Below, in pieces: positions 3,868 through 8,467 of a DNA stretch of 64,000 bases. Position 1 is the first letter of the stretch. Every line of letters starts with the position of its first letter. The stretch lies in contig CAJXLF010000007.1 in assembly GCA_913055805.1 (NCBI GenBank), positions 62,001 to 126,000 of the forward strand, in the 5' to 3' direction. Origin of the DNA: an uncultured Salinisphaerales bacterium (lineage in GTDB: Bacteria; Pseudomonadota; Gammaproteobacteria; Nevskiales; CAJXLF01). The notes beneath the pieces were generated by a model. The model worked only from the letters and a program-made list of their open reading frames with translations, was not told where the DNA came from and searched no databases. Position numbers and translations under genes: made by a program.

Positions 3868-3889
3868 GAAGCCGCCGTCAGGCGGCTTC
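3868..3889 (+). terminator. Rho-independent-type terminator after rho
   Basis: GAAGCCGCC (3868-3876) and GGCGGCTTC (3881-3889) form a perfect 9-bp stem with a GTCA loop, followed on the plus strand by TTTGTGTG. The stem lies 20 bases after the rho stop and also covers the last codons (Lys-Glu-Ala-Ala) and the stop of the convergent ligase gene. On the minus strand the stem is followed by A-rich sequence, so it is most convincing as the rho terminator. Confidence 0.7.
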
Positions 3890-4864
3890 TTTGTGTGCAA
3901 ACAGTTGTTGGGCAATACGGGCCCGTTCAGCCGGGTCCTGGGGAATCTCGTCGAGTTCTTCCACGCGCTGCAGGCGTTCGTGCAGCCCCATGCCGTTGGC
4001 CAGTTGGATCGAGAGGCCGGGACGGGCGTTGAATTCCAGTACCAGCGGACCCAGGTCGCGATCCAGCACGATATCCACACCCAGGTAGCCCAGACCGGCC
4101 AGATCGTGGCAATGCGCTGCCAGGGTCAGCAGGTTGTTCCAGTGCGGAATCTGCAGGCCGGCAATGGGGATGCCGGTATCGGGATGTTCGGTGATGCGGC
4201 GGTCCTTGCAGACGGCCAGGGTGGTTTGTCCGGTCAGTAGATCGATTCCGGTGCCTACGGCACCCTGGTGCAGGTTGGCCTTGCCATCCGAAGCGCGGGT
4301 AGGCAGGCGCACCATGGCCGCCACCGGAATACCCTTGAAGACGATGGTGCGGATGTCGGGCACGCCGCGATAGCTTACCGGTTCGAACAGCGGGTCGAAT
4401 TTCACCCGGTATTCAATCAGCGCCTTGTCGGCCTGGCCGCCCAGGCTGTAGAGGCCGTTGAGGATATTCGACAGGTGATGCGAAATGCCGTCTTCATCCA
4501 TCAGCGCACCGTTGGCACGCTGGTAGCGGTTGTTGGTTTTGCCGGTGATGACCAGGATGCCGTTGCCGCCGCTGCCCTGGGAGGGCTTGATGACGAAGTC
4601 CTTGCGGCCTTCGACGATCTTGCTCAGCTTGGGGATATCGTGTTCGATTTCGATCACGCCGTAGAGTTCGGGCACTGCGATACCGGCTTTTTCGGCCAGG
4701 CGCTTGGTTCTCAGTTTGTCGTCCACCAGCGGGTAGAAGCGGCGCGGGTTGTAGCCGAAGATGTAATCGGCGTTGCGCATATTCATGCCCAGCACGTTCT
4801 GTTCACGCAGGCGCCGCGGCCAGTGCGGCATGTCGGTCAGGGTACGCAGCCAGTCGGTGGCCAT
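3878..4864 (-). CDS. RimK-related alpha-L-glutamate ligase-like ATP-grasp protein
   Basis: This 328-residue ATP-grasp enzyme belongs to the RimK-related ligase group. It has the phosphate-binding loop VIKPSQGSGGNGILV near residue 95 and a metal-binding end motif LVLEFNARPGLSIQ near residue 285, typical of enzymes that make acyl-phosphate intermediates and amide bonds. RimK itself adds glutamates to ribosomal protein S6. Here the N-terminal half differs from RimK and opens with NADYIFGYNPRR. It is the last gene of a three-gene run with an inactive transglutaminase/7TM protein (4-bp gap) and an exported aspartic-protease-fold protein. The family is known only from genome context, and the substrate is unknown. 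Confidence 0.85.
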   Translation of the reverse strand: MATDWLRTLTDMPHWPRRLREQNVLGMNMRNADYIFGYNPRRFYPLVDDKLRTKRLAEKAGIAVPELYGVIEIEHDIPKLSKIVEGRKDFVIKPSQGSGGNGILVITGKTNNRYQRANGALMDEDGISHHLSNILNGLYSLGGQADKALIEYRVKFDPLFEPVSYRGVPDIRTIVFKGIPVAAMVRLPTRASDGKANLHQGAVGTGIDLLTGQTTLAVCKDRRITEHPDTGIPIAGLQIPHWNNLLTLAAHCHDLAGLGYLGVDIVLDRDLGPLVLEFNARPGLSIQLANGMGLHERLQRVEELDEIPQDPAERARIAQQLFAHKEAA

Positions 4865-4868
4865 GGCG

Positions 4869-6404
4869 CTATGGTTTTTCCTGCTGCAACAGGGCGCGGA
4901 AGCGCCAGAACTCGGTCAGGCGGTAGCCGGTATAGCGGCCCATGAGCAGGGTGATGGCCAGCACCACCAGCAGCAGCTCGGGGAAGACGAAGATCAGGTA
5001 GCTGAGCCAGGAATTGCTCATGACCACATAACCCAGCGAGGCTACGGCCAGGCTGCCCAGGCCCTGCTGGAAGGCTTCGCCGGCGCCGCTTTCCTCCCAT
5101 ACCAGCGACATGCGTTCGATGGTCATGGCCAGGATGACCATGGGGAACAGCGCCACCGACAGACCCAGGTCCAGCCCCATGCGGTGGCTGACGACGCTGA
5201 TGCCGGCCATGAGCAGTACCACGATGATGAGCACCGAGGCGAGCCTGGGCACAAGGAGCAATTTCAGTTGCTCCAGATAGAAGCGCAGGCCCAGACCCAG
5301 GGCCACGATCAGGCTGAACAGGATGACGCCCCACAGCCATTCGGTTTCGCGGAAGGCCAGGGCGATCAGGATCGGCATGAAGGTGCCGAAGGTCTTGATG
5401 CCCACCAGGTTGCGCATGACCACCACCAGCAGCGCGCCCAGCGGCACCATCAGAATAATGCGGTATACGTTCTGCGACTGCACGGGCAGGCTGAACAGCG
5501 AGAAGTCCATCACCCTTGAGCCTTCCAGGCGGGCACGTTTCTGTGCCACGGCCACCAGCTCGTGCATATTGCGGGCAATGGAGAATTCCACGGTCGGGGC
5601 GGCGCCGCCTTCCAGGCGGATGAGCGGGTCGCTGCCAATGCGCCACACCAGGAAGTCCTTGGGAATGCCGGCATCGCCGGTGGTGGGGTCGAAGGACGCC
5701 CAGCCCTGGCCGTCATGCACTTGCAGCCAGGGTTCGAGCTGGCCATGGCGGGTGCCGTCCACCAGGCGCAGGCCATAGATCACGCGCGCTGGAATGCGGG
5801 CGCCGGCCAGGATGCGCACGATGTCTTCCACCCACACGCCTTCGCCGGGCATGTCCTTGCGCAGCACGGCTACGTTTTCGTCCGGCTCCTTGGCGTTCAG
5901 ACGGGTCAGCAGCTGGCGGGTGAAGCTCTTGATGTCGGCCGACTGGCTGCGTACTTCGTCCAGCATGCTGAATACGGCCGAGCCGTAGGGCTCGCCGAAT
6001 TCGGGAATTTCAGGGAACAGCGGCGGCGCGGATTCGGACGGCTGATGGGCACTGGCATCCTGGTAAATGGATGCCCGGTAGTAGAGCAACTGCTTGCCGT
6101 TGGCGCGTCGCACCGACCACATGGCCATGCGGTTGTTTTCCTGGCGCTCGGTGGCCAGGCCGTAGTTGCCGGAAACGAAGTCTTCGTCCAGCAAGGAGAA
6201 GCCGGGCGGTTGATTGGGAATGGGGAAGCTGAGTTTGACGGTGCCGGCACGGGCGCGGAAAACGATGCGGGCTTCAACGCTCCAGACTTCGGTGCGCTCT
6301 GCCGGGGTCAGCGGCAGGCCCAGTTGGGTTACCTTATACGCACAAAGCCAGATACCTACTGCGGTCAGGCACAGGGCCAGCATCTTGACGTGCAGGTTTT
6401 TCAT
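4869..6404 (-). CDS. Inactive transglutaminase fused to seven transmembrane helices
   Basis: This 511-residue protein begins with a membrane anchor (MLALCLTAVGIWLCAY). A periplasmic region follows, with a transglutaminase-like core at about residues 195-260 (GARIPARVIYGL, then PWLQVHDGQGWASFDPT), and then about seven hydrophobic helices from residue 320 onward. In active transglutaminases the core holds a catalytic Cys and a HAW histidine. Here the Cys position reads Val/Trp and the His position reads PWL, so catalysis is not expected. The ATG at 6402-6404 is chosen because the 19 codons upstream encode only an Arg-rich, non-conserved stretch. It probably acts as a membrane receptor or scaffold for the flanking protease and ATP-grasp ligase. 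Confidence 0.85.
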   Translation of the reverse strand: MKNLHVKMLALCLTAVGIWLCAYKVTQLGLPLTPAERTEVWSVEARIVFRARAGTVKLSFPIPNQPPGFSLLDEDFVSGNYGLATERQENNRMAMWSVRRANGKQLLYYRASIYQDASAHQPSESAPPLFPEIPEFGEPYGSAVFSMLDEVRSQSADIKSFTRQLLTRLNAKEPDENVAVLRKDMPGEGVWVEDIVRILAGARIPARVIYGLRLVDGTRHGQLEPWLQVHDGQGWASFDPTTGDAGIPKDFLVWRIGSDPLIRLEGGAAPTVEFSIARNMHELVAVAQKRARLEGSRVMDFSLFSLPVQSQNVYRIILMVPLGALLVVVMRNLVGIKTFGTFMPILIALAFRETEWLWGVILFSLIVALGLGLRFYLEQLKLLLVPRLASVLIIVVLLMAGISVVSHRMGLDLGLSVALFPMVILAMTIERMSLVWEESGAGEAFQQGLGSLAVASLGYVVMSNSWLSYLIFVFPELLLVVLAITLLMGRYTGYRLTEFWRFRALLQQEKP

Positions 6405-6424
6405 AATGCTTTTCTGGCGTTGTC

Positions 6425-7027
6425 CTAGTCGTCTTTGTCGTCGTCTTCGTCTTTGCCGCAATCCGGCGTGGTAAGGAAGGTTTCAGAGGCATCGACCAAG
6501 GCGATGTCCTTCAGTGCTCTCCGTCCCAGCAGCACAGGATACAGGAAGCGAGAGCGATCAATCAGACTAAATTGTTCCTTGTGCACCTTGCCGTTGATGC
6601 ACAACTCCATTTCCACCACGTGCCGCTCCTGGTAGTCGCTGTTGTGTCGCTTGATGACGACCTTGCGTACCCGTTTGCGTTCGAAGGTAATGCGGCGCTC
6701 TTCTACCTTGTCGTTGGTTTCCAGGTCTTTGTAGTCTTTGGATTCGAAGGTGAAGCGCACCCAGGTGTCGCCGTTTTTCTTGAAGGTTTCGATGTCTTCG
6801 GCATGCATGGACGAGGTCTTGGCGCCGGTATCCAGCTTGGCCTTGACGAAGAAGTCCACGGGCTCGATGCGCACATATTCCACCCAACCCATGATGTTCT
6901 TTTCACCACTGGTTGCCGTGGCAGGCCAGGCGACAAGGCAGGCCACTGCCACATACGCCGGCCAGCGCGCTAAATCACGAAATTTCTTCCCCATATTCAA
7001 TGTTATACGTCGAGCGGCCATGCCCAT
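6425..7027 (-). CDS. Exported retropepsin-like ATP-dependent zinc protease family protein
   Basis: This 200-residue protein has an N-terminal signal-like helix (WPAYVAVACLVAWPATA), then the retropepsin-type motif KLDTGAKTSSMHA, and ends in an acidic tail DEDDDKDD. The family name 'ATP-dependent zinc protease' is historical; the fold is that of aspartyl proteases with a DTG(A) loop, and RimB-type relatives work with RimK. A strong AAGGAG lies 7 bases before the ATG at 7025-7027, deciding the start over a second ATG two codons later. It is the first gene of the run that continues with the transglutaminase/7TM and ATP-grasp genes, suggesting one envelope-associated peptide-modifying unit. Confidence 0.82.
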   Translation of the reverse strand: MGMAARRITLNMGKKFRDLARWPAYVAVACLVAWPATATSGEKNIMGWVEYVRIEPVDFFVKAKLDTGAKTSSMHAEDIETFKKNGDTWVRFTFESKDYKDLETNDKVEERRITFERKRVRKVVIKRHNSDYQERHVVEMELCINGKVHKEQFSLIDRSRFLYPVLLGRRALKDIALVDASETFLTTPDCGKDEDDDKDD

Positions 7028-7048
7028 GCAATAACTCCTTGTTGATGA

Positions 7049-8353
7049 TTATCCGGCGCTGCCGGTCGCCTTTTCGCGGGCAATGGCCCGATAGCCGATG
7101 TCGCTGCGGCACTGCAGGCCTTCCCAGCGGATGCCGTCTACTCTTGCATAGGCCTGCTGCTGGGCGGCGCTGACGCTGTTGCCGAGTCCGCAGACACACA
7201 ATACCCGTCCCCCGCTTGTGACCACGTTTTCGCCATCAAGTTTGGTGCCGGCGTGAAATACCTTGGTGTCAGGCAAGTCTTTTTGCAGTCCTGAGATGAC
7301 ATCGCCCTTGCCGTAACTGCCGGGATAGCCGCCGGCAGCCAACACCACGCCCAGGGCCGCACGCGGGTCCCATTGGCAATCTGTCTGGTCCAGGCGGCCC
7401 TCCAGCGCGGCTTCGACCAGGTCTACCAGGTCGGACTGCAGGCGCATCATGATGGGTTGGGTTTCGGGGTCGCCAAAGCGTACGTTGAATTCCAGCACCT
7501 TGGGCGTGCCGTCCGCGGCCACCATGACGCCGGCATACAGAAAGCCGGTGAAGTCGCGGCCTTCGGCGGCCATGCCGTCCACGGTGGGGCGGATAACCTC
7601 GTTGACGATGCGGTCGTGGATTTCCGGGGTCACCACCGGCGCCGGCGAGTAGGCGCCCATGCCGCCGGTGTTGGGGCCCATATCGCCGTCCAGTGCGGCC
7701 TTGTGATCCTGTGAGGAGGCCATGGGCAGAATGTGCTTGCCGTCCACCATGCAGATGAAGCTGGCTTCCTCACCGGTGAGGAATTCCTCGATCACCACGC
7801 GGCTGCCGGCTTCGCCAAACGCATTACCGGACAGCATGTCGGTCACGGCGGCAATGGCTTCATCTTCGCTCTGCGCCAGAATGACGCCCTTGCCGGCGGC
7901 CAGGCCATCGGCCTTGACCACGATGGGAGCGCCCATTTCGCGGATGTAGGCGACGGCGGGGTCGACTTCGGTAAAGACCTGATAGGCAGCAGTGGGAATA
8001 CGGTGGCGCGCCAGAAAATCCTTGGTAAAGGCCTTGGAGGCCTCCAGCTCGGCCGCCGCCTGGCTGGGGCCGAAGCAGCGCAGGCCGTGGGCGGTAAAGT
8101 GGTCCACAATGCCCTTGGCCAGCGGCGCTTCCGGACCGACGATGGTCAGGTCCACGCCTTCATCGGCGGCCAGTCTGGCCAATGCCTCGATATCTTCGGC
8201 ATCGACCGCGACATTGCGCACCCCGGGTTCGGTAGCCGTGCCGGCATTGCCCGGTGCCACCAGTACTTCAGAAACTTTGGGAGACTGTGCCGTTTTCCAG
8301 GCCAGGGCATGTTCACGGCCGCCGCCGCCGACAATCAGGACTTTCTGGGACAT
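7049..8353 (-). CDS. purD: Phosphoribosylamine-glycine ligase (GAR synthetase)
   Basis: This 434-residue ATP-grasp enzyme joins glycine to 5-phosphoribosylamine in the second step of purine synthesis. The N terminus MSQKVLIVGGGGREHALAWK is the family signature, and FNVRFGDPETQP near residue 290 is the conserved metal/ATP segment (PurD signature RFGDPExQ). The ATG at 8351-8353 places the signature at the N terminus; in-frame sequence further upstream is not conserved. PurH, often adjacent in other proteobacteria, is not here. The gene ends 21 bases before the zinc protease start on the same strand, so it could be read into that cluster. Confidence 0.96.
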   Translation of the reverse strand: MSQKVLIVGGGGREHALAWKTAQSPKVSEVLVAPGNAGTATEPGVRNVAVDAEDIEALARLAADEGVDLTIVGPEAPLAKGIVDHFTAHGLRCFGPSQAAAELEASKAFTKDFLARHRIPTAAYQVFTEVDPAVAYIREMGAPIVVKADGLAAGKGVILAQSEDEAIAAVTDMLSGNAFGEAGSRVVIEEFLTGEEASFICMVDGKHILPMASSQDHKAALDGDMGPNTGGMGAYSPAPVVTPEIHDRIVNEVIRPTVDGMAAEGRDFTGFLYAGVMVAADGTPKVLEFNVRFGDPETQPIMMRLQSDLVDLVEAALEGRLDQTDCQWDPRAALGVVLAAGGYPGSYGKGDVISGLQKDLPDTKVFHAGTKLDGENVVTSGGRVLCVCGLGNSVSAAQQQAYARVDGIRWEGLQCRSDIGYRAIAREKATGSAG

Positions 8354-8467
8354 TTGCTGCAATAAAATGTGACAAGGACGCGAATTGTACGTCTTCACGT
8401 AATGTTATTCACGGCTCAAGGCCCTATCATTGGCAAACAAGAACGGCCAGCAGCCCTTTAACGTCAC

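Follow-up and report, generated by a model that had tools for sequence, protein, structure and literature searches.

The window, a 64,000-nucleotide stretch of DNA from an uncultured Salinisphaerales bacterium, carries three genes on the minus strand in the order rloA-rloB-rloC with 4 to 20 bases between them, and rho is the convergent neighbour downstream of rloC. The features of the locus are:

6425..7027, minus strand: rloA, secreted retropepsin-like aspartic protease, 200 aa (from sequence, profiles and alignment)
4869..6404, minus strand: rloB, transglutaminase (TG)-7TM membrane protein, 511 aa from the ATG at 6404 (from profiles, alignment and model)
3878..4864, minus strand: rloC, cytoplasmic ATP-grasp protein of the alpha-L-glutamate ligase-like family, 328 aa (from profiles and motifs)
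7028..7048, minus strand: purD-rloA gap, 21 bases from the purD stop to the rloA ATG, with Shine-Dalgarno AAGGAG
3869..3888: inverted repeat AAGCCGCC-TGAC-GGCGGCTT, spanning the rloC stop and T-rich on the plus strand

The most likely start of rloB is the ATG at 6404, 20 bases after the rloA stop (an alternative TTG at 6461 gives 530 aa), and rloC begins 4 bases past the rloB stop. The inverted repeat is probably the terminator of the convergent rho; a scan for terminator-like sites gave a count not above that of shuffled sequences. Across 7028-8398 purD lies directly upstream, with a good ribosome site in the gap before rloA, and transcription from purD may continue into rloABC in the window genome.

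Profile searches assign RloA to PF05618 (E 4.1e-38), with a DTGAK active site, RloB to PF14400 (E 9.6e-52) and PF14402 (E 3.7e-107), and RloC to PF14397 (E 8.5e-93) and TIGR02291 (490.8 bits, cut-off 314.2); the RloC motifs IKPSQGSGGNG and GVDIV...LEFNARPG are intact. Within the class, 51 of 232 genomes contain PF14402; for the phylum the count is 71 of 397. Loci like that of the window are here called type I; in 92 of the 95 found in other genomes, rloB has rloA directly upstream and rloC directly downstream, at median distances of 5 bases (rloA-rloB) and -1 base (rloB-rloC). Because of these E-values and this conserved order chance is excluded, and we are virtually certain that 3878-7027 is an rlo operon. 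The window proteins score under the naming cut-offs of the NCBIfam models RloA3 (NF052264, 170.1 bits against 210) and RloB (NF052267, 483.9 bits against 900); hence only the wider family name is applied and the exact names are withheld. An earlier note, made from the sequence alone, had recognized the three families and the protease-membrane protein-ligase order, both of which hold, and had named a separation of the genes in most genomes as evidence that would refute it; the genes are not so separated.

The same note took the trio to be uncharacterised and biochemically unresolved, a description now outdated. The rlo operon of P. aeruginosa, rloA-rloB-rloC, was published in mBio in June 2025: RloA is a dimeric retropepsin, with structures available, that cuts at least eight consecutive glutamates in vitro; three redundant RloA proteases are present and the triple mutant fails to grow without salt; and deletion of rloB or rloC fully restores the growth of protease-less cells, which otherwise die hypo-osmotically (PMC12239564). 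The natural substrate of RloA was not found in that study (PMC12239564). The window locus is a further member of this published system, for which, the natural substrate aside, cleavage of poly-glutamate, structures and rloB/rloC epistasis are on record.

RloA of the window has an N-terminal hydrophobic signal at approximately residues 12-40, read from the sequence and from alignments, and its catalytic D66, within DTGAK, aligns with D48 of P. aeruginosa. Cys143 and Cys190 correspond in the alignment to the disulfide pair of periplasmic orthologs, and the topology suggested before, with the ligase inside and the protease outside, is confirmed. Residues K46, R114 and R137, for which binding of, or a need for, poly-Glu was reported (PMC12239564), align as K64, R135 and R158 in the window, and window R121 aligns with R92. 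After the last Cys follows an acidic tail, GKDEDDDKDD (6428-6460), and similar D/E-rich tails occur in several relatives (L151, L152, L156, L142, L143); in a protease that binds a poly-acid, such a tail could serve self-inhibition. In one other genome (G161, L022) the RloA beside an intact rloBC has DPG instead of DTG and is missing one of the Arg residues that contact poly-Glu, and is probably, judging by these residues, a degenerate protease.

The window genome encodes two PF05618 proteins, RloA and a cytosolic RimB beside RimK; with a single secreted RloA, there is therefore no redundancy. Its rimB-rimK pair lies on another contig, where the RimK-family protein scores 277.9 bits, while RloC falls far below the RimK cut-offs (27.9 against 331 bits and 50.5 against 143.4 bits), which argues against a RimK-like action on S6, the other finding that the earlier note had named as refuting its reading. 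Adjacent rimB-rimK genes also occur in genomes of a further type, III, described below (L238:1056-2483, L240, L241), and the Rim and Rlo systems therefore coexist there. A separate RLAN-type ATP-grasp protein (PF14401) is encoded at G000:C4:256828-258120 in the window genome (L001, L006).

RloB comprises a TM helix (residues 4-26), a periplasmic beta domain with TG core (37-282) and a 7TM part (approximately 308-489). Aligned to relatives that keep the triad, its TG site reads E-E-D: as had been noticed before, Cys and His are gone, with Glu at both columns, and Asp is kept, so that the window protein lacks the Cys-His-Asp triad of a catalytic transglutaminase or papain-like protease, which relatives of a second type (type II) have. 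An AlphaFold2 model of RloB (pLDDT 93.8) has a TG/cysteine-protease fold in its periplasmic part (3isr, Foldseek E 5.6e-8, VIA Z 15.2), with a weak resemblance to the periplasmic domain of P. aeruginosa TgpA (Z 6.8). For the 7TM part of this model the structural search returned a best Z of 6.7 (7zc6_A), with RND pumps at about 6, which is the noise level. By sequence, the best PDB relative of RloB was propanil hydrolase (E 0.02), which we took to be a chance match.

Dead TG sites and RloA occur together with few exceptions. RloA is on the locus in 97 of 101 dead-TG loci recovered by family searches, and the three type I loci outside the standard arrangement are G389, G103 and G149. A secreted RloA is encoded in trans in G051 and G389, both with a dead TG site and no RloA at the locus; G103 and G149, type I with a dead site, have nothing beyond cytosolic RimB-like proteins.

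Four genomes of the class instead carry a divergent RloB-RloC pair without RloA, in which RloB has the TG Cys, His and Asp. A scan of named genomes for this type II form yielded 80 loci, in Gamma-, Alpha- and Zetaproteobacteria, Nitrospirota, Campylobacterales, Myxococcota, Spirochaetota and Bacteroidota. With TSHQW and WVPFD built into its patterns, the scan favours His and Asp by design, and we reject the 80 loci as proof that these residues are retained; neither the Cys nor the absence of RloA was selected, and seven type II loci from plain family searches agree. In 12 type II rows the Asp column reads Gly or Cys; we likewise did not take these readings as losses, since type II fusion proteins read out at this point show FDPT. 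None of the 81 distinct type II RloB proteins with Cys and His in all our data has RloA on its locus. A PF05618 protein is absent from 24 of 42 type II genomes, and the secreted-RloA profile gave no match in those 24 or in the type II genomes G061, G176, G283 and G376. Three alphaproteobacterial type II genomes encode secreted retropepsins elsewhere, and the remainder of the 42 have RimB or RimBK, one match (L185) being unclassified. The secreted retropepsins of Hyphomonadaceae-type genomes (L186, L188, L190, L191) carry an extended acidic insertion in the flap and number up to two per genome, away from RloB.

Type II loci also differ in their company. A TPR protein is encoded at 70 of the 81, the rest mostly ending at a contig edge, and at many a protein of about 400 aa with a signal sequence follows, in many cases with a C-terminal aromatic residue; these signs, and one weak Pfam match below the cut-off, point to an outer-membrane barrel-like protein. 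At 25 type II loci a single polypeptide of about 810 aa comprises both RloB and RloC, with the ligase at the cytoplasmic C-terminus. In a model of the fused form (pLDDT 81) the TG domain matches 3isr at Z 24.3, higher than window RloB, and the ligase domain is nearest to ArgX (Z 18.8), then to the poly-alpha-glutamate synthetase RimK (Z 17.8). In this model Cys206 lies where a helix begins and His241 where a strand begins, as in active TG folds, a likeness of secondary structure only; the type II site is apparently a working one.

Conservation within RloB runs in opposite directions in the two types. Type I proteins vary most in the TG core, at 28% mean pairwise identity vs 54% for the TM part, whereas in type II this core is the best conserved part, with 59% vs 41% (71% vs 62% in type II loci found without patterns); the type II figures leave out the pattern columns. 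The ratio of TG to 7TM identity is 0.5 in type I and 1.1-1.4 in type II. This contrast argues for relaxed constraint on the type I core rather than for a conserved pocket, although the fold is kept, and it weakens the earlier suggestion that the dead domain binds a peptide.

In a tree built from the TM part alone, a branch sets off each of types I, II, fused II, III and IV, and one branch (SH-aLRT 94) parts live from dead TG sites; the root of this tree is not fixed. The swap therefore rests on a single event, and we rejected the link between dead TG and RloA as a repeated association, since the tree shows one change. Type III has lost the Cys, keeps the Asp and sometimes the His, and has RloA in the genome. 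Type IV (G309, G348) is a TG-less form of RloB with RloC and without a secreted RloA; at L196:5963-8958 (G309) a TG-less 7TM protein of 373 aa and RloC have a barrel-like protein encoded upstream of them, which makes a fourth layout. These comparisons suggest that one cutting enzyme, RloA, took over from another, the TG site, an idea built on one event, on the opposite selection and on type III. The presence of RloA in type I and its absence from type II might also reflect the shared ancestry of two clusters with no functional replacement, as the single branch and the unfixed root would allow; we consider this a plausible account, though one we lean slightly against, because selection on the TG domain is opposite in the two types and because type III, without Cys but with Asp and sometimes His, also carries RloA.

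We propose that RloC, in the cytoplasm, would add L-glutamate through alpha-peptide bonds to form an oligo- or polyglutamyl chain, free or carrier-bound; that the TM part of RloB would move this chain across the inner membrane to the periplasm; and that the chain would there be cut by dimeric RloA in type I, preventing the build-up of long forms, and by RloB's own TG domain in type II. As a whole this scheme is, in our judgement, evenly poised between right and wrong. Its support from the present analysis consists of the gene order, the RloC fold near ArgX and RimK, the RloB-RloC fusion and the triad where RloA is missing; we infer the poly-glutamate product, the transport by RloB and the replacement of lost TG catalysis by RloA, and transport is a guess because no structure clearly matched the 7TM part. 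We favour the scheme because the catalytic and poly-Glu contact residues are kept in window RloA, because ligase and membrane protein are one polypeptide in the type II fusions, and because the TPR and barrel-like partners match the layout of polymer exporters; the published epistasis fits a product made by RloBC and removed by RloA. Against it stand G103 and G149, dead at the TG site with cytosolic RimB-like proteins only, the DPG of G161, and the secreted retropepsins elsewhere in the three alphaproteobacterial type II genomes.

RloC and RloB might instead glutamylate one particular protein of the envelope or the stem peptide of peptidoglycan, with RloA removing the tag as RimB does on RpsF. 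The RimK/RimB precedent, cleavage of Glu-tagged RpsF by RloA in vitro and the sensitivity of the mutants to cell-wall drugs (PMC12239564) all speak for such a tag; with RloC inside and RloA outside, however, a tagged protein would have to be exported by a route of its own, and a membrane partner fused to the ligase is more in keeping with export of what the ligase itself makes, and we think this explanation unlikely. Still less probable, in our view, is that RloB is a sensor or scaffold whose dead TG domain would bind a peptide in the periplasm and pass to RloC a signal that RloA acts on: the fold is indeed kept despite its dead site, and the rlo genes of V. cholerae are under an envelope-stress regulator (PMC12239564), but the type I core is the least conserved part of the protein and no conserved pocket was seen.

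Returning to the glutamyl chain, RloB and RloC may belong to an ATP-grasp-driven non-ribosomal machine that makes a polypeptide and exports it through the inner membrane. The older form would have had a periplasmic cysteine-type domain for cutting or attaching and a TPR/barrel exporter; in the window's branch the site would have died and a retropepsin taken over, leaving a periplasmic osmotic system. We offer this broader history tentatively, as doubtful rather than probable.

In P. aeruginosa the rlo operon is important to osmotic survival, to biofilm and to tolerance of beta-lactams, and with one secreted RloA in the window genome a single deletion should show the phenotype. The sister clade offers further handles: a natural RloB-RloC fusion, that is, one protein for purification; a live TG site, which on removal is expected to leave the product trapped; and genomes free of RloA, where one would expect a stable or exported product. 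Should the swap be true, one protease class was replaced by another within a pathway and a dead domain left over. What is new is the widespread, protease-less sister system that keeps an apparently working TG-type site in its membrane protein. Literature searches for the type II form returned the rlo paper and papers that do not treat it, and, as far as shown, neither the sister system nor the apparent exchange of catalytic domains is described in the literature compared, Iyer et al. 2009 lying outside that comparison. That study, on amidoligase neighbourhoods, is reportedly the origin of the theme of a 7TM protein fused to an inactive transglutaminase.

Several known systems invite comparison. 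Exopolymer exporters with TPR and barrel components include AlgK/AlgE, PgaA and BcsC; type II loci resemble them in having a TPR protein with an N-terminal anchor and a barrel-like protein of about 400 aa, but the type II synthase is an ATP-grasp ligase, not a glycosyltransferase, and we claim no sequence kinship. The P. aeruginosa rlo operon shares with the window the three families, their order, the residues of the secreted retropepsin, the dead TG-7TM protein and the RloC-type ATP-grasp, and differs in that three secreted RloA proteases are found there against one in the window genome, where the operon lies directly behind purD. RimB-RimK (RimABK, PMC11957791) is likewise a retropepsin and ATP-grasp pair working on poly-alpha-glutamate, but is cytoplasmic, acts on RpsF and has no membrane partner. 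The Anbu operon (ATP-grasp, alphaE, transglutaminase-like, Anbu; PMC6376114) also combines an ATP-grasp, a transglutaminase-like and a peptidase-fold protein, although with neither membrane protein nor retropepsin, having a proteasome-like particle instead.
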